Shown: piece by piece, positions 1,189-63,687 of the stretch
How the letters are laid out: each line of letters starts with the position of its first letter
How positions within the stretch are numbered: position 1 is the first letter of the stretch
From: Pelagomonas calceolata
Taxonomy: Eukaryota; Sar; Pelagophyceae; Pelagomonadales; Pelagomonadaceae
Assembly: GCA_918797485.1 (NCBI GenBank)
Contig: CAKKNE010000005.1
Span: 4,774,001-4,838,000 of the forward strand
Direction: 5' to 3'
DNA length: 64,000 nt
Made by a program: the position numbers and the translations under genes
Notes under the pieces: generated by a model
Told to the model about the DNA's origin: nothing
The model's input: the letters and a program-made list of their open reading frames with translations, nothing else
Database searches by the model: none

Positions 1189-1210
1189 CTAGCGTATACA
1201 GACATACTAG
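1189..1210 (+). promoter_or_regulatory. Motif A copy (diverged)
   Basis: CTAGCG then GACATACTAG, a weaker match to the recurrent element GCTAGCGG..TGTAAGACACTAGC. It sits between divergent genes starting at 1099 (-) and 1423 (+). Confidence 0.4.
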
Positions 1211-1422
1211 ACAGCAGCCTTTTGGACGAAAACGCAGCCGCTAAAGCTCAATTGCTGCCTTCGAACCCTTAGAGTATTATTCGCAGTCCTCTTGTCGCCG
1301 CTCCGCACGTTTCAGCGGCTTCGAGACAAGCTGTGACGCGCCAAGCAAGTGGTTTGGCCCAAGCAGAGCTTTTGCGATCAATTCCTTGCGCGCAATAACC
1401 AGTGCGACATACAGCGGTCACC

Positions 1423-1755
1423 ATGGTCGAACTAGAAGACCGCATCTACAAGTACTGGCTCCCGCCCTTCCTCAAGCGCCTCCAGCGCAACCGGTCGGCG
1501 CCGCCGCCGCGGACCGCGCTCGCGGCGCTCTTCCTGACGACGGTGGGCCTCGTCGTGATCATTACGGGAATCTACGAGAAGTGGTACGACGTCGGGCCCG
1601 ACGTGCCCTACCACTACTTCACTTTATTTCTGCTCGGCTTCATCACGTTCGTGCCCGGGAGTTATGCGACGTTCAACTTGTGGGGCGCGTTCCGGCGCTA
1701 TCCAGGGTTCGAGTACGACCAGGTGCCGTCGTGGGACGACCAGGCGCTGACCTAA
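1423..1755 (+). CDS. TMEM230/TMEM134-family membrane protein
   Basis: A 110-residue protein with two transmembrane helices (about 38-58 and 70-92). The second helix is followed by a conserved aromatic/acidic tail with RRYPGFEYDQVPSWDD. This two-helix plan ending in a GY.YD.IP.(F/W)DD-type tail is that of the TMEM230/TMEM134 (DUF872) family, small endomembrane and vesicle proteins. The start at 1423 (ccATGg context) is preferred because the open frame upstream lacks an ATG. Length matches the family (about 110-130). The gene is convergent with the methyltransferase that ends at 1837. Confidence 0.8.
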   Translation: MVELEDRIYKYWLPPFLKRLQRNRSAPPPRTALAALFLTTVGLVVIITGIYEKWYDVGPDVPYHYFTLFLLGFITFVPGSYATFNLWGAFRRYPGFEYDQVPSWDDQALT

Positions 1756-1836
1756 GTATTTCTTTTAAAGATGGCTAGGCGGCCACTTAGTCGGCGGCCT
1801 AGCTCGAAGCAAAGCAAAAATGGGTCCTTGTGTGCA

Positions 1837-3315
1837 CTAGGCGACCTTCGTGAGGCAGTAGTCGTCGTCGGCGGCGCAGGGCTTGACGAATGACAAACAC
1901 TTCGACGTCGACGACGTGTGCTTCTCGAAGGGCTCCAGGCCCGCTTCCATGAAAAGGGCGCCGACATCTTCGTTGATATATGTAGGATAGTGGGGTTCGT
2001 TCAGGTACTGGAAGTTGCCCAACGTCGCGTCGAGCGCTGGCCGGTCGCCCGTCTGAACCGAGTCGACCCAGACGACCAGGCCTCCGGGCTTGCACACTCG
2101 CGCCATCTCGGCCGCCGCCGCGCGCCGCGCCTCGTGGGGCAGCTCGTGGAATAAGTACACGTTGACGACGACATCGACGGACTCGTCGGCCTGGGGCAGC
2201 TTCTCCGCGTTGGCCTGGGCGAACTTTGCCGTGCCGACGCGCTGCGACGGCTGCGTCCGCCGCCGGAACGCCTCCCAGCGCTTGGCGTGGCCTCTGGCCT
2301 CCTCCAAATAAAATGGCGATAGATCTACAGCAGACACGTCCATGCGCGGATAGGCGTCCCGTAGAAAGGTGTTCAAACGACCGGTCCCGCAGGCGACCTC
2401 GAGCACCTTGAAATCATCAGTGGCGGCCCAGGACCGAATCGGGTACAACGCGAGCCGTTGCATCGAGTCCTGGCGGCCAAGGAACAGCGTCTCCGTGGAC
2501 GTCTCGTACAACTTCGCCGAGTCGCTGGACAGCCAGCCGTCCGTCTGGAAGTGGAAGTTGTTCAGGTAGTAGTCCGGGTAGAGGTCCGCGTTGCCGCCGT
2601 AGGGCACGCCGAAGTCGCCGGGGTCCCGCCGGTTGCGCTTCGTCAGGATGGAAATGGCCTCGTTCACGTAGCGCCGCGCCTGGTCCGCGAGGAAGAGCGG
2701 CGACGTCTGCCGGTTGCGCACGCCGTCGACCATGTCCCACGGCAGCGGGAAGGTGCCCTTCTGGACCTCGCCGAAATCTTGCTCATAAGTCGCGACCGCC
2801 TCGGCGAAAAGGGCGCCCATGGTATCGACTAGGATAGGTAATTCAAAGGCCGGCGACCGCGGCGGGCCTTTCGACGGCTCGGTGGTCGCGGGGTCGCCGC
2901 GGTACGGCGCCGACGACGCGCTCGCTTGGTAGGCTAGAACCCCGGCGGCGCCCTGCCCCGCGAAGAACGTGGCGCGCGCGAGGTGGTAGCCGTAGTAGCG
3001 CATCGCGTCGGCGCCCTTCGCGCCGCTCTGGAGGGCCTTCGCGGCCGCCGCCCGCAGGTTGCCGATGCCGCCCTCGGCCGGTGGCGCGTATTTCTGCCAG
3101 AACGCGACGCTCGGGCCCTCGGCGAAGCCGTGCGATCTGTCGGTTTCGGCGGCAGTCGCGTCGTCTACGGGCGGCGCCTCGTTTTTGACGTCGAGGGGCG
3201 GCGCCTCGGTTCGTTTGAGTGTGGCCGCGGACCGGCGCGTTGCGACAGTGCGCTTGTTCACAGGCACGACAAGGGCATTGGTGAGTATGGGCAGCCAAAA
3301 CACTACCAGGCGCAT
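1837..3315 (-). CDS. SAM-dependent methyltransferase, organelle-targeted (UbiE-like class I fold)
   Basis: A 492-residue protein starting at the ATG at 3315; upstream in-frame codons are non-ATG. The N-terminus MRLVVFWLPILTNALVVPVNKR is a signal peptide plus basic transit-like stretch. The class I methyltransferase core is in the C-terminal half. Motif I is VLEVACGTGRLNTFL (about 305-320), then VSAVDLSPFYLEEAR (motif II) and SVDVVVNVYLFHELP (motif IV). A post-motif, VCKPGGLVVWVDSV, follows. A long N-terminal region (about 60-290) of unknown fold precedes it, with helices and a Tyr-rich patch. UbiE/COQ5-like plant and algal enzymes share this core. The substrate cannot be told from sequence. 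Confidence 0.75.
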   Translation of the reverse strand: MRLVVFWLPILTNALVVPVNKRTVATRRSAATLKRTEAPPLDVKNEAPPVDDATAAETDRSHGFAEGPSVAFWQKYAPPAEGGIGNLRAAAAKALQSGAKGADAMRYYGYHLARATFFAGQGAAGVLAYQASASSAPYRGDPATTEPSKGPPRSPAFELPILVDTMGALFAEAVATYEQDFGEVQKGTFPLPWDMVDGVRNRQTSPLFLADQARRYVNEAISILTKRNRRDPGDFGVPYGGNADLYPDYYLNNFHFQTDGWLSSDSAKLYETSTETLFLGRQDSMQRLALYPIRSWAATDDFKVLEVACGTGRLNTFLRDAYPRMDVSAVDLSPFYLEEARGHAKRWEAFRRRTQPSQRVGTAKFAQANAEKLPQADESVDVVVNVYLFHELPHEARRAAAAEMARVCKPGGLVVWVDSVQTGDRPALDATLGNFQYLNEPHYPTYINEDVGALFMEAGLEPFEKHTSSTSKCLSFVKPCAADDDYCLTKVA

Positions 3316-3506
3316 GGTGCTGCCCAAAAGCAATTAATGGGTAGTAATTCTCGTGGGTCTTGCGCCAGCAACTTCACTTCGGGAGAACAGAAGAGCAAAG
3401 AGTCAGAAAGCCTGGCTCGTGCTGATCCGAGGACCGAAGGAAGTTTGGCAGGAACCACGTATCCGAAGGGAGCTGCTTTCTCGCCGGCGAGGACAAATAA
3501 AGGAAT

Positions 3507-3530
3507 GCTAGTGTCTTACAGGCCGCTAGG
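3507..3530 (-). promoter_or_regulatory. Motif A copy (reverse orientation, near-perfect)
   Basis: GCTAGTGTCTTACA then GGCCGCTAGG; read on the minus strand this is the full element. It lies between divergent starts at 3315 (-) and 3734 (+), about 190-200 bases from each. The rest of the 418-base gap shows nothing else. Confidence 0.65.
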
Positions 3531-3733
3531 TTTATTTTTGCGCCCGGCTCCGGCTGGTGCTCGGCTCACAGCGTGCGCTGGAGGCCATCAGGATCTCGTT
3601 CTGGGTCCTTACGTGTCCCAGAACGACTCTAGCGCGAAACGCAGCCGTTTGGGGGCTCGTACAGACTATCCAGAGGACACACCTCACAAACAAAAAAGAG
3701 GCGCAGCGACAGCCGCGCGAAAGAGGTATCAAG

Positions 3734-5692: not shown

Positions 5693-5876
5693 CTGTACCG
5701 CTGCGATTGCGTCGAGCTCAAAAAAGCTGCTCTCTGAGAGGAGGCTGTGCTCCGGTGCGGCAGCTTCAAAGAACTGCGGATCTTGATCTGTAGGGCTGCG
5801 GGCGACCCTTGCGCGTACCAAATCGATCGCGCGTCACCTATTATAGGCTTTTTTGTGCGCTGCGCGATTGAGCAGG

Positions 5877-5899
5877 GCTAGCGCATGTAAGACACTAGC
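5877..5899 (+). promoter_or_regulatory. Motif A copy
   Basis: GCTAGCGCATG then TAAGACACTAGC, followed by a second CTAGC at 5902-5906. It lies between divergent starts at 5692 (-) and 6056 (+), 157-185 bases from each. The rest of the 363-base gap holds nothing else recognisable. Confidence 0.65.
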
Positions 5900-6055
5900 T
5901 CCCTAGCTATCTTCCTCGGGCTGCCGTACTGCTCGTCTTGCTCCCTTCGGACACACTGGGCCTGGTGCGAAGAAGACACTCGGCCAGTCGTGCGAACACA
6001 CAGCTTTCTGGGCATCCCTAAGGGCGTGTAGGAGAGCAGGAGACCGGAGAGCATA

Positions 6056-11841: not shown

Positions 11842-12168
11842 GGGCAGCCGCCAATAACCAACCTGCCGAGCGGCCGCTCCGTCTACCCGCCTAGTGGCCG
11901 CCTCCTCCGGGGGCGCGCCAGGAGTCGTGCGCGGGGGGCGAGGGCTCGGTAACGCGGGAAAGGCGAACCAGGGGTCGCACCATATCCTAGTAGGAAAAAG
12001 GCCTTTTCGACGAGCTGGGCAGCTCGACGCGCCGCGTAAAAGCGCCACCTTGGCGGCACCGGCCGCTTGGTGCACGCCGTAGGACAGCCGGCGAAGGATT
12101 TAGAGCGCGCGGGCCGCTGGGCGCACGCGCGGGGCAGCCCGCGAGGCATTAGCAGCGAGGGGGCAGCC
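11842..12168 (+). promoter_or_regulatory. Motif B cluster (three GGGCAGCC)
   Basis: GGGCAGCC occurs at 11842-11849, 12132-12139 and 12161-12168, the last inside TTAGCAGCGAGGGGGCAGCC ending 9 bases before the channel ATG. It fills the divergent gap 11760-12176, which has no motif A. Nothing else is seen in this gap. Confidence 0.45.
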
Positions 12169-12176
12169 GCGCGCGG

Positions 12177-15812: not shown

Positions 15813-15893
15813 TGATCAATGCTATCGCACACGTCGGTTTTAAGCACTAATAACAGCCAAAAAGAACCGCTTTTCTATTTGAGGCCTTTGTTT

Positions 15894-15916
15894 CTAGTGC
15901 CTTACTGGACGCTAGC
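15894..15916 (-). promoter_or_regulatory. Motif A copy (reverse orientation)
   Basis: CTAGTGCCTTACTGGACGCTAGC read forward; the minus strand gives GCTAGCG..AGTAAGGCACTAG. It lies 82 bases from the minus start (15812) and 37 bases from the plus start (15953), the tightest divergent pair in the window. Confidence 0.55.
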
Positions 15917-15952
15917 TGCGTGTGAGCAGCGTGGCAGAGGAATTGATGGACA

Positions 15953-18748: not shown

Positions 18749-18884
18749 TTTTTTGTGCCTTTGCGCGCCTCTGTGGGGAGTTATTCGTCGTGTGCCACTT
18801 AATAGCTTGCAACAGCGTACACTGCGCAACTCCAATCGAATCGTGAGCGCTAAACACCCGCGTTTTGCCCAAACGCGCAAGCCA

Positions 18885-18909
18885 GCTAGCGGCCTATAAA
18901 GACACTAGC
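18885..18909 (+). promoter_or_regulatory. Motif A copy
   Basis: GCTAGCGGCCTATAAA then GACACTAGC. It is nearly equidistant (137 and 141 bases) from the divergent starts 18748 (-) and 19050 (+). The embedded TATAAA is specific to this copy. Nothing else is seen in the 301-base gap. Confidence 0.65.
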
Positions 18910-19049
18910 CATAGCTCGGAAACCAGATCGCGCGCGCGCATAGCCGCATCGCTGCCCCTCACGCTGCACGAGGCGTGTACGCAATATACTCCATCTCCAG
19001 CAACGGCTGTGTCAAAAGAGTAGCGGTTCAGGAGGGTCTGGGGCAGACC

Positions 19050-20216: not shown

Positions 20217-20228
20217 TTCTCTTTTTTT

Positions 20229-20241
20229 GAGAGAGAGAGAG
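20229..20241 (+). repeat. Short (GA)n run after a T tract
   Basis: A T7 tract followed by GAGAGAGAGAGAG just downstream of the aldo-keto reductase stop, in its 3' untranslated region. Confidence 0.6.
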
Positions 20242-20292
20242 TCGCTTATTGAATCCATCCCCAGGTAGTACGGACCCCGAACGCTTCGATCA

Positions 20293-20317
20293 GCTAGCGT
20301 GTCTGTAAGACACTAGC
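20293..20317 (+). promoter_or_regulatory. Motif A copy
   Basis: GCTAGCGTGTC then TGTAAGACACTAGC followed by AAGC. It is 174 bases upstream of the start at 20492 and downstream of the reductase. Confidence 0.65.
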
Positions 20318-20491
20318 AAGCAATCCACAGCATGCGCAGCAGGATTTTGAGCCTCACCGTAGCCAACTCTGCATAAGAGCTACCGTAGCGGCACGCCACT
20401 TAGGTGCTCCGTGACCAGTGTGACGAACGGCACATATAACTGCTGTATTGACAAGGAGAGCATTTCCAACACAAGGCAGAGCATTGCTAGA

Positions 20492-21076: not shown

Positions 21077-22026
21077 CTAGGACGGAGTCTTCGTCTCGTC
21101 ATCGCTCTCGTCGTCGACGGGCGGTGCCTCCTGGGCGTACGCGGCCGGGCCCAGCCCGTCAAAGAAATCGCCGAGTTCCCGCGAGAAGTCCCGCGAGGAC
21201 CGGGCCTCGGCCTTGACCTCGTGGACTTCCTCCGCGGCGATCTCCGAGGCGCCGTCCGCGACTTCTACGACGTGCGCGTCGGCGAGTTCGGTGGGCGTCG
21301 ACTCCGCGAAGGACTCGCGGCGGCTCCGGAGCTCGACGATTTCCTGCTGCGTTCGACGACGCCTCGCGGCGGCGAGGCGCACGGACTCCGCTCGACGCGC
21401 GGCCGAGGAGCGGCGCCGGCCGTTGCTGGAGGGGCGCCCACGACAGCACTGGACGAAACAGCACGGCATAATAAAGACGAAGAAGCCCACCAGAAGGAAG
21501 GTCCCGAAGCCCGCCGGGTAGCTCCGCTCGCAGTAGGGGCTGCCGCCGAATTTATCCGAGTACCGCGGGCAGGCCTCGCCGGGCTTGCACCGCGTGCAGC
21601 AGAAATTGTACGCCTGGCACGTCGATCGACCGCTCCCGTTCGCGTCGCCTCGCGTGTAGCGGTAGCCCGGCGCGCACCTATGTGGAAATCAAAAGTCGAG
21701 AACACTGGGCAGACGACGCGTCGACCGTCGCACGGCTCGCCGCGCGAGTAGCGGTAGCCCGGCGCGCACGCGGCCCGCTCGGCGGGGGCGCAGCAGTTGT
21801 CGTCGCGACGGCAGTGCTTCGCGTCCGTCTTTTTTTTGTTGTAACCGGCTCCGACGTCGAGGATCATGCACGCGGTCGGCTCGCATACCGGTGCTGTCGC
21901 GGAGCTATTCGGCGATGGTTCGAATGGCGTTTGCAGGGGCACAGGGTCTGCTCCGGTGGTCGCGAGGACCGCGAGGACTAGCCAGATTGCACACGTACGC
22001 GCCGGTCTACTGGCAATTCCCGCCAT
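21077..22026 (-). CDS. Secreted cysteine-rich type I membrane protein, two exons
   Basis: Exon 1 is 22026-21734 and exon 2 is 21677-21077. The intron 21678-21733 is 56 bases (GTGCGA...CCACATAG). The joined frame is 297 residues. It has a signal peptide (MAGIASRPARTCAIWLVLAVLATTG) and a Cys-rich ectodomain (about 48-165). Two tandem copies of CAPGYRY(S/T)RG face each other across the splice junction (RGEP|CAPGYRYTRGD). One transmembrane helix (GFGTFLLVGFFVFIM) runs into CCFVQCC, a likely palmitoylation cluster. The cytoplasmic tail is Arg-rich then acidic. The EGF/TNFR-like spacing is suggestive only. Function unknown; surface receptor or adhesin is possible. Confidence 0.65.
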
Positions 22027-22412
22027 ATCAGTTTTTATCTGGCTCTAAACGTTGCGCGCGCTCGCCACGTGCGGTCGAATGTTGCGTGGTCGAATAGAGG
22101 TAGTGGTCGGGCTCTTGTTGGTTTCCCTTGCACCGATTTTGCGTGAACGTCAGCGCAAATCAAGTGCTGCTCTCGGTGACCTGAAGCATGCTCCCTTTTT
22201 TACTTTCTCCTCAACCACCCGGTTGCAGCAACGGAAGCATACGAGGCTCTATCGACGGGTCCGTAATCGCTAAGATCACGCGGAGATCGGAACGAGACCG
22301 TCGTCGCCGCGACGTCCGCGTTTCAAAGTGCCGGTCTGATTTTATCCGCTAATTCGTGCCAACAACGCCAGCGGCTTGCCAGCTCACCTATTGAGCGCCA
22401 GAAGAATCCCGC

Positions 22413-22436
22413 GCTAGCGGTTGGTAAGACACTAGC
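22413..22436 (+). promoter_or_regulatory. Motif A copy
   Basis: GCTAGCGGTTG then GTAAGACACTAGC. It is 59 bases upstream of the start at 22496. The remainder of the divergent gap 22027-22495 shows nothing recognisable. Confidence 0.65.
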
Positions 22437-22495
22437 ATTGGGCAGAGCTTCCCATGATAAGCCTTTGTGAGGGCACAGGAGTCGGTTAGGCAGTG

Positions 22496-26261: not shown

Positions 26262-26281
26262 GGCTGCCCAGATGGCTGCCC
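26262..26281 (-). promoter_or_regulatory. Motif B pair (GGGCAGCC, minus strand)
   Basis: Two copies, 26262-26269 and 26274-26281, 6-26 bases upstream of the kinesin ATG and on its strand. A third weaker copy (AGGCAGCC) is at 26298-26305. Confidence 0.45.
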
Positions 26282-28146: not shown

Positions 28147-29991
28147 TTACATCTGGCGAACCTGAACCGACGCGCGGATGTTCTGCAACCAGCGCGGCAG
28201 GACTGCAGGACTCGTGTTCGGGTGCACGCGGTCCATACCATGTATGGCCACGTGCGCCGGGTCGCCGTTGAACACTAGCGCGTCGCCGCTCCGGAACGTG
28301 AAGGAGTCGGTGGGTTGGTCCGGTTGCATACCGCCCGAACCGACTAGTCCCGTGCCCACGTTAAATGTGCACTCATCGCCGAGCGAGAACAATACGACCC
28401 AATGTCCGACGCCGTCGATGTGGTTCGGGAGCGACGCGCTCCGGCCGTACGTCAACCCCTGGCACATGTAGTAGTCGTGCTGGTTCTGGAGCGCGCGGGC
28501 GGCGAGCATCCGCGTAGCGTTATCGCCAGGCCCGTTGCGGGGGACGTACGACGGGTCGAGGACGGCGCGCTCGGCCATATCAATGACTTGGCCGGCCATG
28601 GACTTAAATTCGTCCGGCACGGCGAGGCCGGCGAAATGCTGACCACCGCGACTAAAATGGCGGCGAGACGATGAGGTGCCCCGCTCGGCGAGCGCAATCG
28701 AACCGTTGCCGCCCGACGCGCGGACCGTCGCCGTTGCCGTCTCGAGGTACCGCACCGTCGCCGTCCGATGCTCTGGATCGTCCTCTCGAGCCTTCGATTC
28801 TTCGCGCCGCTTCGCCTTCTGCCACTCGCGAATGGCCTTGGCCGCCTTCGTTCCCCCGTTCAAAGCCGCGGCTTTGAGGTCCGCGCGCCGCTGGTGGTGC
28901 GCGCCGGTCACCGCATATCGCTCGATCCCCTTCGCGATTCGCAGACCGCCGTCTCCAAAGGGATCGCGGACCACGATAATCGCCGAAGGGCGGCCGTGCG
29001 CCGTCAGCCTGAAGATCGTCGGCGCCGACGCGAACGAACCGCTGCCCATGACAATGTGCCCGACTAAGTCTCGCCGCTCAACCCGAAAGCGAACGCGACG
29101 GTGGTCGCCACACGCGGCGCCGACGGTCATGAGGAGCTCGGCGCGGTCGTAGCGCTTCTCGCCCTGGGCCAGCACATACGTAGAGTACGGGTCGTCGCGC
29201 GCGTCGAGCCCGAGCTTCTCTCTCAGCGGCGGGAAGACCATCGATAGAGGCTGTGTCTCCTCTAACTCGAACGTCACGGCCTGGCCGCCCGGCAGGCCGA
29301 CGCGCAAGCGCCGCGTGCCCAGGTGCGTCGGCGTCACGCGCGCGACGGGTTCTAGTGCGCAGGGCGTCGCCGGCCCGGCCTCGGAGAGCCGCCGCGCCAA
29401 CTGCTCGTCGCGGTCGATCTGGTCCACATCAATCACGACGGGGCCCTCAGCGAGCCGTCGCGCGAACTCAGCGTCGGCCTCCTCTCTTCTCTTCTGGTCG
29501 CGGTCCGCCTGTCGATACTCGGCTTGGAGGCGCCGCGCGAGCGCCGCGTCATCGTCGGCCGCGGGGGGCGGGAGGATCTCGAAGCCGTCGTCGTCGGAGT
29601 CCTGAGCGGCCGCCGGTGGCGCCTCGTCGTCGCTACTGCTCTCGGCGCTCACGTCGATGACATCCGTCCGCTGAATGAGATCGTCGATCTCCTCGGCGTA
29701 CTGCGTCGCAGCCACGTGCGCGGCTCGCTGCTGGACGTCCTGTTCCAGGTAGAAGACGCGCGATGCCACTTCACCGCGGCGCGAGGACGTATCGCAGTGC
29801 CGAACCAAGGCTGCGACGGCCGGCGACGCGTCGAAAGCCGCGCCGGTGGTCGCCGCCTGCAGCGCGTGTGAGGCCTCGTCCAGCAGCTCCTCGTCGTCGC
29901 TCAACGCTCGCAGGAGGCGCTCCAGTTCCGCGCCCCACGACGGCGCGGCGTCCGCTTGTCTCTGTAGCTTTGATGCGTGCAGCTCGGCCAT
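28147..29991 (-). CDS. AlkB-like 2OG/Fe(II) oxygenase fused to UIM-like and ubiquitin-like modules
   Basis: A 614-residue protein; start at the ATG at 29991 (MAELHASKLQ), upstream codons are non-ATG. The N-terminal helical part (about 1-110) is followed by acidic linkers. Three short repeats (DAALARRLQAEY, DAEFARRLAEG, DEQLARRLSEAG; about 145-205) resemble ubiquitin-interacting motifs. A ubiquitin-like beta-grasp candidate follows (about 225-305: RRLRVGLPGGQAVTFELEET...FRVERRD). The C-terminal AlkB-type double-stranded beta helix (about 430-614) has iron ligands in NHIDGVG (HxD) and VAIHGMDRV. Its 2OG-binding Arg lies in the final WLQNIRASVQVR block, with SLGDECTFN and FRSGDALVFNG strands. 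Probably a nucleic-acid or protein demethylase directed by ubiquitin binding; the coupling is inference. Confidence 0.78.
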   Translation of the reverse strand: MAELHASKLQRQADAAPSWGAELERLLRALSDDEELLDEASHALQAATTGAAFDASPAVAALVRHCDTSSRRGEVASRVFYLEQDVQQRAAHVAATQYAEEIDDLIQRTDVIDVSAESSSDDEAPPAAAQDSDDDGFEILPPPAADDDAALARRLQAEYRQADRDQKRREEADAEFARRLAEGPVVIDVDQIDRDEQLARRLSEAGPATPCALEPVARVTPTHLGTRRLRVGLPGGQAVTFELEETQPLSMVFPPLREKLGLDARDDPYSTYVLAQGEKRYDRAELLMTVGAACGDHRRVRFRVERRDLVGHIVMGSGSFASAPTIFRLTAHGRPSAIIVVRDPFGDGGLRIAKGIERYAVTGAHHQRRADLKAAALNGGTKAAKAIREWQKAKRREESKAREDDPEHRTATVRYLETATATVRASGGNGSIALAERGTSSSRRHFSRGGQHFAGLAVPDEFKSMAGQVIDMAERAVLDPSYVPRNGPGDNATRMLAARALQNQHDYYMCQGLTYGRSASLPNHIDGVGHWVVLFSLGDECTFNVGTGLVGSGGMQPDQPTDSFTFRSGDALVFNGDPAHVAIHGMDRVHPNTSPAVLPRWLQNIRASVQVRQM

Positions 29992-30140: not shown

Positions 30141-30164
30141 GCTAGTGGCATGTAAGACACTAGC
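30141..30164 (+). promoter_or_regulatory. Motif A copy
   Basis: GCTAGTGGCATG then TAAGACACTAGC followed by AAGC. It is 150 bases upstream of the AlkB-like gene start (29991, minus strand), just before the gene desert. Confidence 0.65.
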
Positions 30165-30794
30165 AAGCAAACTCGGAACGCACATGCAGCCGTTTGAGCA
30201 TCGTTCCGTTAGCTAATGGTCCAAAGAGATCAATAGGAAACTTACTGGGGGCCGAAAAATAATAATATTAAATTCGCGCTATTGACGGTCCCACCAGGGC
30301 GGGCACGTCAGTGGAAACCTGTCAATTCGTGGTCCTGAGGTCTCCCTGGGGTCGCCTAGGGTCGGTACTATACACGTGCAAACGCCTACACCGCATGCGC
30401 GGGCGCTTCCATCGGTAGATACATATTAGTACAGGTCCTCAGCCAGACATCGGGCCAGAGCCCAAGTCCCCCAAGTTTTCGATCCAGAGCTCTCTGGGGA
30501 GCTCCAAGAACGGGCGCATGCGGCGTATGTGACGACCCGACCCCAGACCTATCCCAGAGGGCGTCCGCGAGCCGATCTACATCCGAAAAAAGTAATTAAT
30601 TTGGTCCCGATGGCGCCCCGTTCCCGTCAAAAACGTCAATTACCCGAGGCCCCCCAGGAATCGTAATAGCGGTCTCGTCGGACCCCATACTACCCCAGCG
30701 ATAGTCAATTACAAGTAAATGACATCTACATCACGAGAAGGGTACTTTGGTGCTGCCCACGCTCGGGACGTGAACATCTTGATCTGGACCTCGC

Positions 30795-30870
30795 GCAAGT
30801 CGGTCGATCATGGAACAAATGATCGCGTCATGGTCCATGGTGATGGTACACGGGCTGATGGTCGCAGATC
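30795..30870 (+). repeat. Diverged direct repeat, copy 1
   Basis: Begins GCAAGTCGGTCGAT and contains ATGGTCCAT and GCTGAT..TCGCAGATC. It matches 31084-31160 in the same order with roughly 70 percent identity by eye. Confidence 0.55.
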
Positions 30871-31083
30871 CAAGTAATTCGCCAAAATTATTGAGATCAT
30901 GGGCTCGCGAGTTGGCCGAGCCGCGCGGAGCATTGTGGGGTCTCGAGCAATGTAGTAGGCGCTCAGGCCGGTTATCTGGCCCGTCCCATAACCGAAGCGC
31001 CTGAAATGCAATTTTATTTCATAACTCACCGGTCTGGGGCCAATTCAGTGCCCCGCGTACGCACCGTCGCCCGCGGAGAACGG

Positions 31084-31160
31084 GCAAGTCGGTCGATTGT
31101 GAATAGAACAACGGCATTATGGTCCATCTGGGTGGTGGCGTCGCTGATACTCGCAGATCT
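31084..31160 (+). repeat. Diverged direct repeat, copy 2
   Basis: Begins GCAAGTCGGTCGAT and contains ATGGTCCAT and GCTGATACTCGCAGATC. It is the partner of 30795-30870, offset about 289 bases. Confidence 0.55.
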
Positions 31161-31768
31161 AGAGTATGTGCCTTTTTTTCAGTAAACGTGGAGGGCGCGG
31201 ATTCGTCGTTTCGCGCGGCTTTAACGGAGTACATGATCATGCTGGCCGATGTCCAGGCGAGCTAGATGAAATCTACCCCCAACAAACGGAAGGAAACGAA
31301 CATAAACTCGGGAGTTGTCGAGTAGAATTCTTCTCCCGCCCTCCGAGCGCGGGCCGTCGGCTCCGGTTCCGTCGAGTGTGCATGAAAACTGGGCTGGAGT
31401 TGATATAATGTACCATTTGAACGGTAGAAGGCGCCATCAATTGCTGGTGTATTTTGGCAAGCCGTAAGATTCATCCGCGAATGTCGCGAGCGGTGCCTTC
31501 CGGGAGGCGCGAGGGTATGTTCCCGGGCCGCTACTCTGAAATATTTGGTTTCGGCGAACGACTAGGATGTATTCTGAATTTTGGACATTCTTTTGACGCT
31601 ATCGAGGCGCATCTTTAGAAGTACTAGTAGGTATGTCGCGCTAGCTCTCGGTGCTTTTGCTTTTGCAGCCCGCGTGCTCGTTTGGTATAGTCTACGGTAT
31701 AGTGAGCCACGCCACCGCCTCGCCGCCAAGAGAAGAGCTCTCGGGGTCATTTCTACACACAAATCTCC

Positions 31769-32452: not shown

Positions 32453-32740
32453 CGGAGCCGCTGCGCTACCCTGGCAGATAGTCTCTGGTGTTGGGCTGCC
32501 CCAGACGGATTTCGCGGGGCAGGCTGGGTCCGGTCGCTGGGGCGCCCCGTCGGGTGTCCGATACAGCGTTCAAGCAGCTGTTAGGGCCGGATGAGGCCTC
32601 ACGACAGCGCTTTTTGGCTCACAGTGTTACGCTGCTTGTGCTGGACCCGCACGGCAGACCAAGCGCGGCACGTCGCGTAGAGAGGTCTTGGTGGTCGGTA
32701 GAGAGGTACGAAGGCTCGCTAACGACCACAGCTCGACGCG

Positions 32741-35063: not shown

Positions 35064-35301
35064 CGTTGCAGCGTGTGTCAGAAGTCGGTCGTTGTATCGT
35101 GTGTCAAAAGCCGTGCGGAGATTTGACGGCTCGGTGCGTTGCAAGCGGTTTTGTCGTATTTTGACTCGCGTAGCCCGCTGGAGACAGAGTCTTCAGCACA
35201 GCGGCTGCAATTTGGGGTGTCTAAGACACGCAACGAGTTTCGAGCAACCGTAACGCCGCTACAAAGGAGCTGGGACCATTTACAGGCGGCGCTGTTTTGC
35301 T

Positions 35302-35324
35302 GCTAGTGTGTCTGTGTCGCTAGG
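35302..35324 (-). promoter_or_regulatory. Motif A copy (reverse orientation, diverged)
   Basis: GCTAGTGTGTCTGTGTCGCTAGG forward; minus strand CCTAGCGACACAGACACACTAGC. It is between divergent starts 35063 (-) and 35458 (+). Nothing else is seen in the 394-base gap. Confidence 0.5.
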
Positions 35325-35457
35325 TCGCGCTGCTGCGAAACGCGGGACAGCTACGCTGCTACGAGCTCGGAGGCGGTTCCGGACACACAGCAGGTCGCCA
35401 GCAGTCGACGCTTCGGGTGCACACCAAAAGAGAATCCAACTTGTGGCCTGTGAAAAG

Positions 35458-37733: not shown

Positions 37734-37872
37734 GGGCAGCCTTGAAAGCACCTACTCGCGAGGGAGCATGGCTTCGCGGCGCATCTCGAGGCCACCGCGC
37801 GCCTAACTCGCCGAGGGCAAGCGTTCGCCGAGGGCGCATCGCTCTCCCGGCGCGCCGGGCAAGAGGGCAGCC
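37734..37872 (+). promoter_or_regulatory. Motif B pair (GGGCAGCC)
   Basis: GGGCAGCC at 37734-37741 (within GCTAAGCGGAGGGGCAGCC) and 37865-37872, upstream of the K+ channel ATG at 37905. Confidence 0.4.
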
Positions 37873-40034: not shown

Positions 40035-40166
40035 GCTTGTTGTGCCGCGCGGACGTCGGTCAAGCAGAGGGGGGGAGACTAATCTCGGTTCAAATGGGAT
40101 TTTTCCGCCTGTACGGACTCGCTTGGCGCAATGTGTAGGTGCTCCGTGTTTGCTCCGCGCACTCAG

Positions 40167-40188
40167 GCTAGCGGCGTGAGACACTAGC
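40167..40188 (+). promoter_or_regulatory. Motif A copy
   Basis: GCTAGCGGCG then TGAGACACTAGC followed by AAGCCAAGCAAGCC. It is 237 bases upstream of the ChlH start. Nothing else is seen in 40035-40425. Confidence 0.65.
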
Positions 40189-40425
40189 AAGCCAAGCAAG
40201 CCGTAGGTTGCCTTTTGAGCGCCTTCAGGGCTCGTGCTCGGCTCTAAAGCCGGAGTCAGACGCATTCAGGCATCTGTCACATCAGATACTCGAGGTCTTC
40301 GCGCTTGCCAGAGCGCGTTGCGGCTCGTGCCGCGAGTAAGCTCTCACTGGATCTGCACTTTCTACAGCGCAGACGCGGCGGCACGATTCCTGCGAACAGT
40401 AGTGGTCGCTCAGCGCTGAGCAAAC

Positions 40426-43400: not shown

Positions 43401-44530
43401 CGTGGCCGAGGGCACGGGCCGCGTCGCGCGCTTCGAGTTAATTCCGCTCGAGGAGCTGGGGCGGCCGCGCGTCGATGTATTGGCATCACTGTCGGGAATC
43501 TTTCGCGACACCTTCGAGAACGTCGTTTTGTTGTTGGACGATCTCTTCGAGCGTTGTGCTGCCGCGGCCGACGAGCCTGTTGAGATGAATTATGTACGAA
43601 AGCACGCGCTCGATCTCGAAGCTCAAGGCGCCGAGCGGCCTGCGGCCCGACTCTTTTCGAATCCAGCGGGGGATTACGGATCTATGGTCAACGAGCGCGT
43701 CGGCAGCGGCGACCTGTGTCGAAATTAAATTTTAGGCGCCCCACGCCATCGACGCGCACCTGCGTCTGCACGCTGACCTGACTCACTGGTTGGTTTCCGC
43801 ACAGGCGGCGAGTGGGACGAGAGCTCGGCGCTCGGCGATACCTGGGCGTCGCGGAACGCGTTCTCGTATGGACGCAGCGACAAGGGCTCGAACCGCGCCG
43901 ACGTGCTCCAGTCTCTCCTCGCTACAACGGAGCGCGTCGTCCAAGAGATTGACTCGGTCGAATGTACGCGAGCTGTGTCTTGCGCGTGATCGACGCGTCC
44001 GTGTCTCACTGATTTCTCCCCGCGCAGACGGCCTCACGGACATACAAGAATACTACGCCAACACCGGCGCTCTGAAGGTGGCCGCTGAGAACGCGAGTGG
44101 TAACAAATGTTCGGTGTCAATCGTGGAGGCGTTCCGGGACGACGCCGACGGGCCGCAACCGAAGGACCTGGACGACGTTCTTCGGTTGGAGTATCGCTCG
44201 AAGCTACTGAACCCGCGGTGGGCGGAGGCGATGCTGGAGCAGGGCTCGGGCGGCGCCTACGAGGTGTCGAGTCGCTTCACGGCGATGGTCGGCTGGGGCG
44301 CCGTGAATGGTGTCGACGACTTCGTGTGGGACGGCGCCTCCGAGAAATACGCGCTCGACGACGCCGTGTCGGAACAGCTCCGCCGCTCGAACCCCGAGGC
44401 CTACCGGAACGTGCTGGCGCGCCTGTTAGAGGCGGCCGGCCGGGGCATGTGGAACGCCGATGAGGACGTCCTACGACGGCTGCGCGAGAAATATGCCGAC
44501 GCCGACGATTCTGTGGAGGGCGTTGCGTGA
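40426..44530 (+). CDS. chlH: Magnesium chelatase H subunit, three exons
   Basis: Exons 40426-43705, 43805-43963 and 44028-44530 give 1313 residues, the normal ChlH size. It is the porphyrin-binding catalytic subunit of Mg-chelatase, which inserts Mg into protoporphyrin IX at the first committed step of chlorophyll synthesis in the plastid. The N-terminus MRIKLLLVFSSLAWSLVPPATTR is a signal-plus-transit sequence. The cobN/Mg-chelatase core spans about 160-1290, with YVWELISQMEAEGLLPVPIFINGVE, HVGMHGTVEWLPGQALG and NPAGDYGSMVNERVG. Intron 2 (43964-44027) is GT-AG (GTACGC...GCGCAG). Intron 1 is best explained as GC-AG (43706-43804), because it restores the family sequence ERVGSGEWDESSALGDTW. A GT site 12 bases later also keeps frame. 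The 7-base GCGGCGA stands at both ends of intron 1. Confidence 0.93.
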
Positions 44531-46449: not shown

Positions 46450-46680
46450 CAGTGCTTTGTGGTGTGCCGCCGCACTGCTGCCGCCACTTCTGTTGGTGCG
46501 AATCCGCACCGCTGCGCCCTGCACCAGCTGTGCTCGGTGCTCTTTGATGAGCCGCAGCGATCAAATTTCTTGCACCAGAGATGGCACACTGGCAGCAACA
46601 GTGCACAGAACAAAACAAAAGCCAGCTCTAGGCACTGATGCGTCGTGCTCGGGCAAAAACGCTGGGCTCCAGGAGGGAGA

Positions 46681-46703
46681 GCTAGCGGCCGTAAGACACT
46701 AGC
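46681..46703 (+). promoter_or_regulatory. Motif A copy
   Basis: GCTAGCGGCC then GTAAGACACTAGC followed by AAGC. It is 232 bases upstream of the MidA-like start (46449, minus strand). Nothing else is seen in 46450-46773. Confidence 0.65.
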
Positions 46704-46773
46704 AAGCGAACAATAAACGCCAAACAAAGACAGATAGCGAAAACCGAGAGTTAACGGACGAGAACCCACCTCA

Positions 46774-49819: not shown

Positions 49820-50264
49820 GGCTGCGCCGGATTCAAAATGGCGTCGGCAGCCGCTGAACACGTACGGCTTCGATTCGTGGCTATTCAGCGCGACGCTTCG
49901 TACCGGGCCGCAAGCACTTCGTATATCGCGCTTGCACACGTCTCCTGAGCACAGGCTGCACCAGTGTGGCCCTATGAGAGCTGTCGCTGGCTGAATCGAG
50001 CCGCCACCTGAAATCCGCGAACCCGCACGATCGCACCGGTCCCTGCGAGTATGAGGGGTCACAAAGGCAGTCGTCGCGTCGTTTGCAGACCTGCTCCAGC
50101 CGCTCGCTTGCGCCGGTCTCACAAGCCTGAAAGCCAAGCCATTTTTGCATCGCTTTTGCACGCGACCAAAGACCGTCTCGCGCGCAAAAATTGCCATCGA
50201 CGCGACGCCATCGTTGCGTCGTTCACCGCTAACTCGCAAAAACCGCAAGGATCTCTCATTAGCA
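49820..50264. other. Divergent intergenic region without motif A, B or C
   Basis: 445 bases between BTA1 (-) and the first cyclodeaminase gene (+). None of the three recurrent promoter motifs is visible. Two short T/A runs (CATTTTTGCATCGCTTTTGCA near 50138-50158; GCAAAAATTGCC near 50182) stand out from the GC-rich background. Confidence 0.35.
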
Positions 50265-51864
50265 ATGTTGCTCCGCACCACGCGCCGGCTCTCGACCTCG
50301 TTCTCGCGCACGCAAGCCCTGGAGGGCAACCTGGCTCGCAGAGAAGCGTCGTCCAAGCTCGCGGACACGACGGAGCCGCCCAAGCTCTCGCGCGCGGACG
50401 CGATCGAGGGCCGCCTCGCGAGACGCGAGGCCGCGGCCCTTTTGCAGGGCGCGGCCGAGGCGAGCTCCCTGACGCGCGCCGAGATGATCGAGGGCCGCCT
50501 CGCGCGTCGCGAGGCCGCGGCGCTCGTGCAGAGCCTCGAGGCGAGCCCGCGCCCGAACCTCAGCCGCAAGCAGGTCTCGGACGTGGAGTTGCACGCCTGG
50601 CTCACGGAGGACGTCGGCCTCATGGACGCGGTCGCCAAGGACTACGCGTCCATCCTGCGCGCCGAGGGCTACGACTCGCCGCGCGCCATCGCGGCGACGC
50701 CCGTGGCCGAGCTCGAGCGCAAGCGCGTCCGCCCGGGCCACGCGCGCGCGATGCACGCCTGCGCGGAGGACCTCGGCAGCGACGAGGGCGGCGCGGCGGC
50801 CGGCGTGAAGATCTTTGATTACGACACGATCGTCAAGTCGTTGTCCGTCGCGAATGCGATCGAGACCGTCGAGGATGCGTTTTGCAAGCTGGCCCAGGAT
50901 AAGGTCGACGTGCCCATGCCGATGCACATTACGATCGACGAGACCGCGACCGCGGGGCCCGGCGACTGCCACGTCAAGGGCGGCTACGTGAGTGGTGCCG
51001 CGACGTGGACCGTGAAAGTCGCCTCGGTGTCGTTCTACAAGAGCGGCGGCCCGCCGGGCGGCGGCGTGTTTGTCGTGATGAACGCCGTGACCGGCCAGCC
51101 CTGCGGCATCTTCCAGGAGAACCGCTTCATGACGGACCTGCGCACGGGTGCCGCGGGCGGCATCGCGCTCAAGCACTTCGGCCTCGCCGCCGACGCCCTC
51201 GGTTCCTCGAACACCATCGGCTTCATCGGCTGTGGCGCGATCGCGAAAGTCATGGCGCGGGCGGCCAAGGCCGTGCGCCCGGACTTCAAGGGCGTCTGCT
51301 ACGCGCCGGACGGCTCGCACGAGACGTTCGCCGCGGAGATGTCCGCGGAGCTCGGCGTGCCGTTCACGGCGTTCGCGTCCGTGTAGAAATCAATCATTGG
51401 GTCGCGTCGATGGCGTAGTTTCCGCCGTCGTATGAAAACGCGGGCTTACCGATTTGGTTCGCAGGTCGGACTCGGCCTCGGAGATGTGCGCCGAGTCGGA
51501 CATCATCTACACGCAGACGCCCGGGAGCACGACGTGCCTCGAGAAAAGCTGGCTCAAGCCTCATGCGACCATAATTTGCTCCGGAAGCGACCAACCGACG
51601 AAGCAGGAGATCCCCACCGACGTCCTCAAGGCCTCGAAGTACGTCTCCGACTTGACGAAGCAGACGTCCAAGGTCGGCGAGCTGCGGTCGGCGATCGCCG
51701 ACGGCTCGATGACCGAGGCCGACGTCTACGCCGAGATCGGCGAGGTCTGCAACGGCTCCAAGCCCGGCCGCGAGGGCAAGGAACTCATCGTCGTCGACCT
51801 GACGGGCACCGGTGCGCAGGACGCGGCGATCGGCCAGGTGGCGTGGGACAAGCTGGGCAACTAG
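50265..51864 (+). CDS. Ornithine-cyclodeaminase/mu-crystallin family protein with N-terminal repeats and SAM-like domain, two exons
   Basis: Exon 1 is 50265-51376 and exon 2 is 51465-51864; the 88-base intron is GTCCGT...GGTTCGCAG. The product is 503 residues. Presequence-like MLLRTTRRLSTSFSR suggests mitochondria. Three helical repeats follow (ALEGNLARREASSKL, AIEGRLARREAAALL, MIEGRLARREAAALV; about 17-105). A SAM-type helical domain (about 110-180) is next: LHAWLTEDVGLMDAVAKDY...HARAMHAC. The Rossmann-type OCD/mu-crystallin domain (about 185-503) has GDCHVKGGYV, TWTVKVASVSFYKSGG, NRFMTDLRTGAAGGIAL and IGFIGCGAIAKVM (dinucleotide binding). Family members are NAD(P)-dependent deaminases or imine reductases. 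The downstream paralog lacks the N-terminal modules. Confidence 0.85.
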
Positions 51865-52241: not shown

Positions 52242-53319
52242 ATGATGCTCGCACGACTGAGCCGCACGATTGCGCAGCGCGCGCGGCCGCTGACGGCGCG
52301 CACGTTCGCTGCGCCCGCGCCGAAGATGTTCGATTACGACACGATTGTGAAGAGCTTGAGCGTCGCCGACGCCATCGAGACCGTCGAGGATGCGTTTTGC
52401 AAGCTCGCGGAGGGCAAGGTCGACGTGCCGATGCCCATGCACATTACCATTGATGAGACCGACAGCGCGGGCCCGGGCGATTGCCACGTGAAGGGTGGCT
52501 ACGTGTCCGGCGCGGCGACGTGGACGGTCAAGGTGGCCTCGGTCTCGTTCTACAAGAGCGGCGGCCCTCCGGGCGGCGGCGTCTTCGTCGTGATGAACGC
52601 CGTCACCGGCCAGCCCTGCGGCATCTTCCAGGAGAACCGCTTCATGACTGATTTGCGCACGGGTGCGTCTGCGGCGTCCCATCGCGCCGTCGACGCTTGT
52701 GACATAGTCGACCAACGCAGGCGCCGCGGGCGGCATCGCGCTCAAGCACTTTGGCAAGGGCGACACGATCGGCTTCATCGGCTGCGGCGCGATCGGCCGC
52801 GTCATGGCCCGCGCCGCCAAGGCGGTGCAGCCGGACTTTAAGGGCGTCTGCTACGCGCCCGACGGCTCGCACGAGACCTTTGCCGCGGAGATGTCCGCTG
52901 AGCTCGGCGTGCCCTTCACGGCGATGTCGTCGGCGGAGGAGATGTGCGGCGCGTCGGACGTGATCTACACCCAAACTCCTGGCTCTACCACGTGCGTCGA
53001 GAAGAGCTGGCTCAAGCCGCACGCGACGATCATCTGTTCGGGCTCGGACCAGCCGACGAAGCAGGAGATCCCCACCGACATCCTCAAGGCGTCGAAGTAC
53101 GTCTCCGATTTGACGAAGCAGACGTCCAAGGTCGGCGAGTTGCGGTCGGCGATCGCCGACGGCTCGATGACCGAGGCCGACGTCTACGCCGAGATCGGCG
53201 AGGTCTGCAACGGCTCGAAGCCCGGACGTGAGGGCGACGAGCTCATCGTCGTCGACTTGACGGGCACCGGTGCGCAGGACGCCGCGATCGGCCAGGTCGC
53301 GTGGGAGAAAATGGGCTAG
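52242..53319 (+). CDS. Ornithine-cyclodeaminase/mu-crystallin family protein, second tandem copy, two exons
   Basis: Exon 1 is 52242-52662 and exon 2 is 52721-53319; the 58-base intron is GTGCGT...CCAACGCAG, splitting DLRTG|AAGGIAL. The product is 339 residues. It has a presequence MMLARLSRTIAQRARPLTARTF (mitochondrial type), then directly the OCD domain (FDYDTIVKSLSVADAIETVEDAF onward), about normal length for the family. It aligns end to end with the last 320 residues of the upstream gene. Its intron is at a different place, and the upstream gene is uninterrupted at that codon. The last 250 coding bases are far more similar between the copies than the rest. Confidence 0.88.
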
Positions 53320-54296: not shown

Positions 54297-54464
54297 TCAA
54301 TGCTAAAAGTGGTCTGCTTGTTGTGTTTGGCGTGTTTGGCGCAGCTGTGGGATTCAACGCTTTGCGGCGCGTCGACGGCGTTAAAAGCTGTGCGAATCGC
54401 TCCTGCGCGTCGTCCCTGGTCCAATCTCTTGGCGTAAAGAGCGGTAAAGCTCGCGCCGCCGCGG

Positions 54465-54488
54465 GCTAGCGGCCTGTAACACACTAGC
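54465..54488 (+). promoter_or_regulatory. Motif A copy
   Basis: GCTAGCGGCC then TGTAACACACTAGC followed by AAAC. It is 169 bases upstream of the b5-reductase-like start (54296, minus strand). Confidence 0.65.
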
Positions 54489-54552
54489 AAACGAGACGCG
54501 TTGAAATTCAAGCCGTCGTCGACCTTGTCGCGCGGAGATTAGTGTAGAGAAA

Positions 54553-56256: not shown

Positions 56257-56305
56257 TTTTGTTTGTTGTGGCTTCGGGGCTGTCTCACCGATGCAACGCC
56301 TCGTC

Positions 56306-56326
56306 GGGCAGCCTCGTTGGGCAGCC
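56306..56326 (+). promoter_or_regulatory. Motif B pair (GGGCAGCC)
   Basis: Copies at 56306-56313 and 56319-56326, 50-70 bases upstream of the TRIM-like start (56256, minus strand), on the opposite strand to that gene. Confidence 0.4.
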
Positions 56327-56568
56327 TCTACCTTCGGGGCTGGCTCACCGGTGCCGGTGCACGCGGCGTATGCAACCCTCGATCGTTGCGGCGCAGGTGC
56401 TGCGGACGGCAACGCCTGCTCGGGCGCGACGATGTAAGCGCCGGCGTTTTTGCGCCGGCAAACTGGCCCCGCTGCGCGCAGCCGAGGGGAGCGCACTTTC
56501 ACCCATCGCGAGGGCTGTTGTATCGCATATCGGCTCCCTGTATGGTTGGGAAGCGTACACGTTCATGC

Positions 56569-56590
56569 GCTAGCGGCGTGAGACACTAGC
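56569..56590 (+). promoter_or_regulatory. Motif A copy
   Basis: GCTAGCGGCG then TGAGACACTAGC followed by AAGCC, nearly identical to the copy upstream of chlH. It is 221 bases upstream of the BRE1-like start (56812). The divergent gap 56257-56811 holds this and motif B; nothing else is seen. Confidence 0.65.
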
Positions 56591-56811
56591 AAGCCATTGG
56601 CGGCATCGACGCGGCGGCTGTATCGCCGGCACGCACGCATTTGTCGGATAGTGCAGGCACCGCTGCGACGCACTCTCATTGCGCCAAGTAGCTGGTGTCA
56701 GGCAAGCCGCGCGTGCAGTGCAGCCTAGCACAAAATCCTCCTTAGCAGCAGGGAGAGGGCGGCGCGCCTTTAAACCGCCAGCCGTGCGCGCGTAGGAGCG
56801 CCACAAAAAAA

Positions 56812-61072: not shown

Positions 61073-61073
61073 C

Positions 61074-61125
61074 TTGGTCGCGGACGCGGCTCGGCTCGCT
61101 TGGTCGCGGACGCGGCTCGGCTCGC
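61074..61125 (+). repeat. Perfect 26-base tandem duplication
   Basis: Two adjacent identical units, 61074-61099 and 61100-61125, each beginning TTGGTCGCGG and ending CGGCTCGC. They begin 1 base upstream of the ATG at 61072 (minus strand), so they form its 5' leader. Confidence 0.85.
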
Positions 61126-61430
61126 TCCGCGAATCGCGTTTTTTCACGAACGACTCAAGTACGCCAGCCGCTGTGGAGAGCTATGCTACGGCGGCGTTGT
61201 TCGTGCGCGAGATGCTTCCGTAGGACGTTTCTCGCCGCGTTTGTCGCGTTGTAGTCCGCAGTGCAGTCAAGCGGTCCTAGCGCAACCGCTACGCGTTACC
61301 TCGTTTCGCCCTGCTCGGTGAAGCTCGCCCGCAGCACTTGGTCTAACGTGTCGCGGCGCCTTGTCCCAGTTCCCCGCGCACTGGGAGAACGCTGGCTTCG
61401 TCGTGAGCAACGTTGCGATTAGCGGGAGCA

Positions 61431-61451
61431 GCCTAGCTGAAAGCCACTAGC
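61431..61451 (+). promoter_or_regulatory. Motif A copy (diverged)
   Basis: GCCTAGCTGAAAGCCACTAGC followed by AAAC. It lies in the gap 61073-61470, 359 bases upstream of the small gene at 61072 (-) and just after the GT90 gene end. Apart from the tandem duplication, nothing else is seen in that gap. Confidence 0.45.
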
Positions 61452-61470
61452 AAACTGGACGGATACGATA

Positions 61471-62829: not shown

Positions 62830-62887
62830 CCTTCAACGGTGTGGGCCTCCGCGACAGCGTGGCCGCGGCGGCAGCTTCGCTAGTGAG

Positions 62888-62895
62888 GGGCAGCC
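62888..62895 (+). promoter_or_regulatory. Motif B copy
   Basis: GGGCAGCC within CGCTAGTGAGGGGCAGCC, between divergent starts 62829 (-) and 63007 (+). Confidence 0.35.
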
Positions 62896-63006
62896 CTCAT
62901 TTTTGCTGCCCTCTCCAGCTTTTTGCTCTGCTTTTTGTTTGAATGGCCGGCCCTAAAGCGCGGCTCCCAGACCAGGATTGCCCGCCCCAGGACGCACGGA
63001 TCAGTC

Positions 63007-63606
63007 ATGGCGGCCCTGGAAGCGCAGCAGCAGCAGCTCACCAGCGATGCCCCAGTGGAAGCTGCCGCGCCTCCTGAACTACCCTGGTGGATGCAAACTC
63101 CGTCCGTGCAGAGGCTGCTCGCAGAGTACGATTCCAAGACGGACGCGGAGCGGGCGGAGATCAAGCGGCGGGCCGAGGAAGCCGAGGAGGAGGCGTTCCA
63201 GCGAATCGCCGCCCGGACGACGCCAAACAAACCGACGGAAGAAGGCGCGCAGCTCCGGACCCTCGCCGCGGCGCGCTATGTGAGCCGCCTGGAGAGCGTC
63301 CACGACCACGTGCCGAAGCGCGAAGAATTGGAATTGTTCGCCGACTTGATCGGCAAGCTCGGCCTGCGCATCGACTACGACCGGTACGAGGTCGTGCGGC
63401 GCAAGGTGTTGGAGGCGGGCGGGACGCCCGGCTTCTGGGAGCAAGCGCAAAACGCGACGCGGTTCTTCAGCGTCCGGCCGCGGGCCGCGGACGGCACGGT
63501 CGCGGTCGCGGCGCTGCGGCAAGCGACGTTCGACGAGGCGGAGAGTCTATGCGTGCTCGCGTCGCGGGCGCGGAAACTTCCGGAAGGGGGTGTAAGTTCT
63601 TCTTGA
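63007..63606 (+). CDS. Unknown soluble helical protein
   Basis: A 199-residue protein from the ATG at 63007 (gtcATGgcg). Near the N-terminus is PPELPWWMQTPSVQRLLAEY, followed by a charged helix rich in Glu/Arg/Ala (about 45-75). The rest is helical with aromatic anchors (FWEQAQNATRFFSV). There is no signal peptide or membrane helix, and no known family. The C-terminus is a short Ser run. Confidence 0.55.
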   Translation: MAALEAQQQQLTSDAPVEAAAPPELPWWMQTPSVQRLLAEYDSKTDAERAEIKRRAEEAEEEAFQRIAARTTPNKPTEEGAQLRTLAAARYVSRLESVHDHVPKREELELFADLIGKLGLRIDYDRYEVVRRKVLEAGGTPGFWEQAQNATRFFSVRPRAADGTVAVAALRQATFDEAESLCVLASRARKLPEGGVSSS

Positions 63607-63665
63607 TTCATCTTGCGCTCTCAATTCACGGTGCTAGGACACGGTGCTAGGACTGCATTCTTGTG

Positions 63666-63687
63666 GCCTAGCCTTTGACACACTAGC
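63666..63687 (+). promoter_or_regulatory. Motif A copy
   Basis: GCCTAGCCTT then TGACACACTAGC. It is 166 bases upstream of the pirin-like start at 63854. Confidence 0.5.

Follow-up and report, generated by a model that had tools for sequence, protein, structure and literature searches.

The question raised by this locus is what a short sequence element that recurs ahead of one gene after another might do there. The locus is a stretch of 64,000 nucleotides from a Pelagomonas calceolata assembly (GCA_918797485.1, contig CAKKNE010000005.1, positions 4,774,001 to 4,838,000 of the forward strand), hereafter called the window. The element, motif A, had been listed at 15 sites in a preliminary description, which took it for a bidirectional promoter or transcription factor site and not for a miniature inverted-repeat transposable element (MITE). 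Our results support that reading through placement exclusively upstream of genes, a single copy per gap, indifference to orientation, a switch in the strand depleted of ATG, recurrence ahead of genes in DNA that appears to be related, and the lack of target duplications. Judging from the sequence, motif A is probably a bidirectional promoter-proximal binding site for a putative widely used factor, serving many unrelated genes.

Motif A spans about 24 bases and comprises a left arm, GCTAGCGK, a few loose bases, and a right arm, GTAAGACACTAGC (also written RAGACACTAGC). The distance between the two CTAG cores ranges from 14 to 19, with a mode of 18; because of this variation, the rigid consensus with a fixed 2-base gap proposed earlier matches only four places at up to three mismatches. 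C followed the left CTAG in 28 of 29 copies, and A preceded the right CTAG in all 29 (15 from the window and 14 from related contigs, the latter partly selected for this difference by a search pattern that allowed only C or T after the left core and required A before the right one). The two arms are unlike in a fixed way: the CTAG ends are inverted, as had been stated, but the bases adjoining them differ and the ends form no true palindrome. The AAGC tail described as frequent follows 5 of the 15 window copies, and AAAC takes its place in two more (7/15 together).

The tetranucleotide CTAG is not over-represented in the window, with 100 occurrences against 133 expected from dinucleotides. Pairs of CTAG spaced 16 to 19 bases, by contrast with the 0 to 2 pairs found at each other distance up to 80, occur 14 times (13 listed sites plus position 31624), and the two remaining listed sites have spacings of 14 and 15. 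When the right arm TGTAAGACACTAGC was searched alone with up to three mismatches, 15 matches were obtained versus 1.49 expected, a number reached in none of 100 shuffles; 13 of them fell on listed sites, 60705 and 61679 were extra, and the sites at 1189 and 35302 were missed. A two-arm matrix trained on the 14 related copies, which come from eight contigs, returned exactly the 15 listed sites above a threshold of 16 (scores 17.6 to 41.4; next score 10.8), whereas 60 Markov control sequences gave a mean of 0.12 scores above 16, at most 1, with a top score of 21.4. The element is present at every one of the 15 places originally listed, within 1 base of the starts given for them, as follows.

1188-1211, plus strand: motif A in divergent gap 1100-1422, a weaker, diverged copy; score 20.3
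3507-3530, minus strand: motif A in divergent gap 3316-3733 (methyltransferase, U-box protein), 192 and 202 bases from the two starts; score 29.6
5877-5899, plus strand: motif A in divergent gap 5693-6055; score 30.2
15893-15916, minus strand: motif A in divergent gap 15813-15952 (2OG oxygenase, signal peptide peptidase); score 31.9
18885-18909, plus strand: motif A centred in divergent gap 18749-19049, with an aldo/keto reductase on the right; score 34.5
20293-20317, plus strand: motif A in tandem gap 20217-20491; score 41.4
22413-22436, plus strand: motif A in gap 21470-22495, scored divergent, with an uncertain left gene model; score 33.6
30141-30164, plus strand: motif A upstream of a minus-strand gene starting at 29991, gap scored tandem; score 35.7
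35302-35324, minus strand: motif A in divergent gap 35064-35457, with a PPC-decarboxylase-type flavoprotein on the right, a weaker copy; score 17.6
40167-40188, plus strand: motif A in tandem gap 40035-40425, upstream of chlH; score 37.9
46681-46703, plus strand: motif A in tandem gap 46450-46773, upstream of a minus-strand methyltransferase gene; score 40.6
54465-54488, plus strand: motif A in tandem gap 54297-54552, upstream of a minus-strand FAD/NAD reductase gene; score 39.4
56569-56590, plus strand: motif A in divergent gap 56257-56811, between a gene whose protein has a weak B-box match below the Pfam cut-off and the RING-finger gene previously called BRE1; score 37.9
61432-61451, plus strand: motif A in tandem gap 61073-61470, a short diverged copy 359 bases from the start; score 21.6
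63667-63687, plus strand: motif A after the last predicted gene, the next gene lying outside the window, a weaker copy; score 17.8

Three of these sites (1188, 63667, and 35302) score under the Markov maximum and 61432 barely exceeds it, so these four rest partly on their placement. Positions 31624 and 60705 were considered as extra copies and not counted: 60705 scores 9.2, and 31624 is absent among the scores above 8.

The window has a GC content of about 65% and mostly short gaps between its 37 crude gene models, which were built from open frames and codon-usage scores, the ATG being picked by the analyst among the best candidates. All 14 copies located between predicted genes sit in upstream gaps, eight divergent and six tandem; the copy at 63667 is not placeable. 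Motif A is carried by 8/14 divergent gaps, 6/9 tandem gaps, and 0/13 convergent gaps, and no copy occurs in the 51 kb of predicted genes, in agreement with the earlier statements that the element is intergenic, lies upstream of starts, and is missing from coding sequence and from gaps between converging genes. The probability of this upstream-only placement is 2.7e-11 by length, and the gap counts (14/23 upstream vs 0/13 convergent) differ with a Fisher p of 0.00025, the convergent gaps summing to only 1.3 kb. Two copies were never found in one gap. Relative positions in the eight divergent gaps are 0.31, 0.49, 0.54, 0.66, 0.49, 0.93, 0.63, and 0.58, that is, six of the eight lie at 0.49-0.66 of the gap, and the 0.93 case is the one with the uncertain left gene. 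The distance from motif to ATG in 21 motif-gene pairs is 35 to 359 bases (median 174), and the five top-scoring 8-mers of the upstream gaps all derive from motif A.

According to Pfam, the genes served appear functionally unrelated, which makes a regulator of a single pathway unlikely. Several names given earlier find support in Pfam, namely chlH, the PPC-decarboxylase-type flavoprotein, and the FAD/NAD reductase, but the supposed BRE1 shows only a C-terminal RING finger, and no pirin domain was found in the 50 stretches scanned with Pfam, a subset of the open reading frames of the window.

The orientation of the motif is the same as that of the gene in 10 of the 21 pairs, and the three reversed copies reported between divergent genes were recovered at 3507, 15893, and 35302. 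Between motif and start, the 3,706 bases concerned in the window contain 7 sense and 38 antisense ATGs (p = 3e-6), and 17 motif-gene pairs of the relatives contain 12 and 43 (p = 3e-5), although the choice of starts could yield part of this depletion, an effect limited to one frame in three. Where both starts of a divergent gap are predicted (seven gaps), plus-strand ATGs number 9 to the left and 1 to the right of the motif and minus-strand ATGs 4 to the left and 12 to the right (Fisher p = 0.004); the depleted strand switches at motif A. Scanning ribosomes select against upstream ATGs in leaders, and the leaders of both genes therefore seem to start near motif A. This pattern suggests that transcription begins near motif A in both directions.

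Copies outside the window were sought by scanning the contigs of 84,980 prokaryote species for GCTAGCGG-N2-5-RAGACACTAGC, which gave four contigs. Three belong to metagenome-assembled genomes (MAGs) titled Spirochaeta (two) or proteobacterium, whose sample names, we presume, point to marine metagenomes; the fourth, from a bacterium of 31% GC, was taken as a chance match. The three MAGs (G001, G002, which is MED672, and G003) were searched for further copies, and the contigs carrying them were read. On the MED672 contigs several copies stand close together between genes, and in one contig (L084) a stretch between two coding segments is 82% identical over 62 bases, in reversed orientation, to the start of a likely chlH intron of the window. 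These contigs look like mis-binned eukaryotic DNA, and prokaryote MAGs of this GTDB-based collection appear to contain several such pieces (L080-L084 and L088 of MED672; L085 and L087). Judged by eye and from its open reading frames, L087 seems to be a chimera in which eukaryotic DNA gives way to DNA of bacterial type after about 4 kb; two of its first open reading frames gave no Pfam match. Since none of 78 further genomes in the order of G002 matches the motif and 62 further ones in that of G003 yield a single match in all, the motif is not characteristic of those bacteria.

Contig L081 (8.3 kb) was fetched through a single copy and carries four more; of the five, four have a predicted downstream start and the fifth is barely under the threshold (score 11.8). 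Of the 15 copies examined across the relatives, 12 are flanked on one or both sides by a predicted start no more than 450 bases away. In the reverse test, a matrix built from the window copies scored above 16 at 16 copies in the eight eukaryote-like contigs and at one in L086. Comparison of the contigs with the window by blastn gave 11 matches, seven of which are the motif itself. L086 (G003:C39; a bacterial-looking contig whose single copy lies 7 bases from its end) and L065 (Aquimarina, 31% GC) had been left out of training. The copies L081:7636 and L088:2947 fall outside the training pattern; the former enters the ATG and start counts and the latter no placement count.

Compared with the reversed pattern, matches numbered 8 vs 0 in G002, 2 vs 3 in G003, and 1 vs 0 in G001, so by number the copies in G003 are unremarkable. 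Searched with one mismatch, the right arm did not outnumber its reversed control in any of the three MAGs. The reversed pattern is a poor control, because it has GATC in place of CTAG and is itself common in bacteria; it gave 94 and 110 matches in G001. Among viral contigs (IMG/VR), the exact right arm was found at 48 loci and the two-part pattern at 13; as each had one match, and in view of their contexts and of a GC of 0.30-0.54, all of these but one were judged chance occurrences. With 51 scores above 16 in 498 kb, the viral loci are no negative control, since they were picked by the motif string. The exception, L019 (GC 0.68), was seen by eye to have GCTAGC ahead of the right arm at a spacing greater than that of motif A. 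A chlH protein query returned no relative among the viral contigs.

How might such an element work? A widely used factor, or a pair of factors, would bind the two arms as double-stranded DNA and keep the promoter open, and transcription would begin, to either side, no more than some tens of bases from motif A. The range of core distances, 14 to 19, suggests two DNA-binding parts that are flexibly joined, or a pair of proteins, rather than a rigid dimer. Yeast general regulatory factors keep promoters open in this manner; sites for Reb1, Abf1, and Rap1 lie in the promoters of many unrelated genes, are indifferent to orientation, and are often found between divergent genes; judged by position, motif A resembles them in all three respects. 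Abf1 sites are also bipartite, but with a fixed spacing where that of motif A is variable, and we know of no sequence shared between motif A and the Reb1, Abf1, or Rap1 sites. Another abundant promoter element, Drosophila core-promoter Motif 1 (YGGTCACACTR, bound by M1BP), has CACACTA in common with the right-arm variant GACACACTAG; it is a single element of a distant lineage and the likeness is probably due to chance.

Within stramenopiles, the introners of Aureococcus and Pelagomonas are, like motif A, short dispersed elements of compact algal genomes (accessible parts of PMC9860276 and PMC9481584). They are intronic and longer, about 210 bp in Pelagomonas according to the accessible part of PMC9481584, whereas motif A lies upstream of genes and shows no target duplication. 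Several of the oomycete transcription factor sites whose specificity has been measured are palindromic, and the only site with CTAG in the main text of PMC11267843, as far as that text was accessible, is the heat-shock-factor site TTCTAGAA, mentioned twice, which motif A does not match. In the accessible literature on pelagophyte and stramenopile promoter motifs and on the motif strings, with subscription journals mostly outside its scope, no description of motif A was found. A bolder proposal, which we regard as tentative and rather doubtful, is that motif A would be a lineage-wide master promoter element, marking the centre of most promoters and of bidirectional ones above all, setting both start sites, and bound by a factor or a pair of factors special to pelagophyte-like algae.

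The inverted CTAG ends and the many dispersed copies would also be expected of a very short, non-autonomous, MITE-like transposon that inserts in open promoter DNA and is kept there by chance, and Aureococcus is reported to carry transposon-derived introners, some of which prefer nucleosome linkers (accessible part of PMC9860276). Against such an origin, no target duplication stands out among the 15 window and 14 related copies when five trims are combined with seven lengths (largest z 2.2, at trim 0 and length 5), and the flanks look unrelated by eye beyond the motif and its AAGC tail. Together with the single copy per gap, the absence from predicted genes and convergent gaps, and the fixed difference between the bases adjoining the two cores, this makes a transposon quite unlikely. 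A signal acting in RNA, such as a hairpin or processing site in the transcript leader, could draw on the five-base pairing of GCTAG with CTAGC and on leaders that appear to start close by. With orientation matching that of the gene in 10 of 21 pairs, however, the complement would be present in about half of the transcripts; the following position of the stem is a C-A mismatch in nearly all copies, without a compensated pair, and no Rfam match was found in the window at the gathering score. We regard this explanation as very improbable.

A boundary, origin, or chromatin-organizing site that is located in promoters without directly driving transcription would be in keeping with at most one copy per gap, a position near the middle of most divergent gaps, and indifference to direction. 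The excess of copies on the plus strand could likewise reflect replication or another strand-wide process. The leaders that seem to start near motif A on both sides speak against it, and a density of 15 copies over 64 kb, or roughly one every 4 kb, is high for origins; such a site is unlikely. A terminator is unlikely too, because divergent gaps have no gene ends and none of the 13 convergent gaps carries a copy. An introner was rejected since no copy lies inside any predicted gene, with gene models not resolved intron by intron. Motif A is not covered by any tandem repeat in the window, where the tRNA and Rfam searches were also negative.

Several observations weigh against a bidirectional promoter-proximal site. 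The strand excess (12 of 15 window copies on the plus strand, p = 0.035) finds no explanation in orientation independence. Motif A is common in upstream gaps but not universal: 9 of 23, including 6 of the 14 divergent ones, have no clear copy. Start ATGs are predictions and were picked when the motif A sites were already known, and the tests on ATG treat each triplet as independent. The depletion is also weaker in the relatives, where only 1 of 12 sense ATGs lies within about 40 bases of the motif and 11 lie farther away, in 2,753 bases, compared with 6 of 7 within that distance and 1 farther in the window. A start site 30-60 bases from the motif, hinted at by the window ATGs, is not repeated in the relatives and was dropped. 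For three of the 15 related copies no start was predicted up to 450 bases away; one of these three is just below the threshold. Finally, the 14 training copies were gathered with patterns shaped on the window motif, so their likeness arises partly by selection and the two-arm test is a cross-check of base preferences that is not fully blind.

Other recurrent elements were noted in the gaps and introns. The 8-mer GGGCAGCC and its complement are enriched in upstream gaps, 11 occurrences against 0.8 expected (11842-12168, 26262-26281, 32494-32501, 37734-37872, 56306-56326, and 62888-62895). By hand counts made post hoc, it is present in 5/6 divergent gaps without motif A and in 1/8 with it (Fisher p = 0.026), and over all 23 upstream gaps in 5/9 and 1/14 (p = 0.018). 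Two promoter classes, one with motif A and one with GGGCAGCC, are not claimed, because the pattern was found post hoc and three of the five occurrences of GGGCAGCC in the relatives adjoin motif A. Pieces containing CGCGTCGATGGCG or close variants, some of them ending in CACACAG, are found repeatedly in likely introns, and in some of the gaps, of the window (43696-43756, 50182-50216, 51391-51425) and of the MED672 contigs (L084:1497-1558; L082:6872), and may form an introner-like family common to the two.

Pfam supports a kinesin, GNT-I, magnesium chelatase H (chlH), a signal peptide peptidase, DUF3419, and others in the window, of which chlH suggests photosynthesis. A GC content near 63% is typical of Pelagomonas calceolata. 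The compactness and low intron number of the window fit this species, for which 16,667 genes, 0.45 introns per gene, and intron lengths peaking near 210 bp are given in the accessible part of PMC9481584. Together with the introner-like intron pieces noted above, these features suggest a pelagophyte-like alga. A gene of the ornithine cyclodeaminase/mu-crystallin type is tandemly duplicated (50792-51771 and 52307-53229, in blocks 83-88% identical). The 1.3-kb stretch at 30250-31570, with a GC of about 53-57%, no open frame of 100 amino acids, and imperfect internal repeats seen by eye, is perhaps a decayed gene or mobile element.

If motif A is the binding site proposed here, it would offer a testable handle on how this alga switches its genes on and, should it be pelagophyte-like, a promoter element for a group with none found described in the literature searched. 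Extrapolated from the density in the window (15 in 64 kb), a genome of 30 Mb would hold about 7,000 copies. A site present in 14 of 23 upstream gaps could aid gene annotation and help to locate start sites without transcripts; it could also help to spot contigs of this kind wrongly binned in bacterial MAGs and provide parts for reporter constructs that work in two directions. The arrangement itself would make it possible to test how two genes of a compact genome share a single site.

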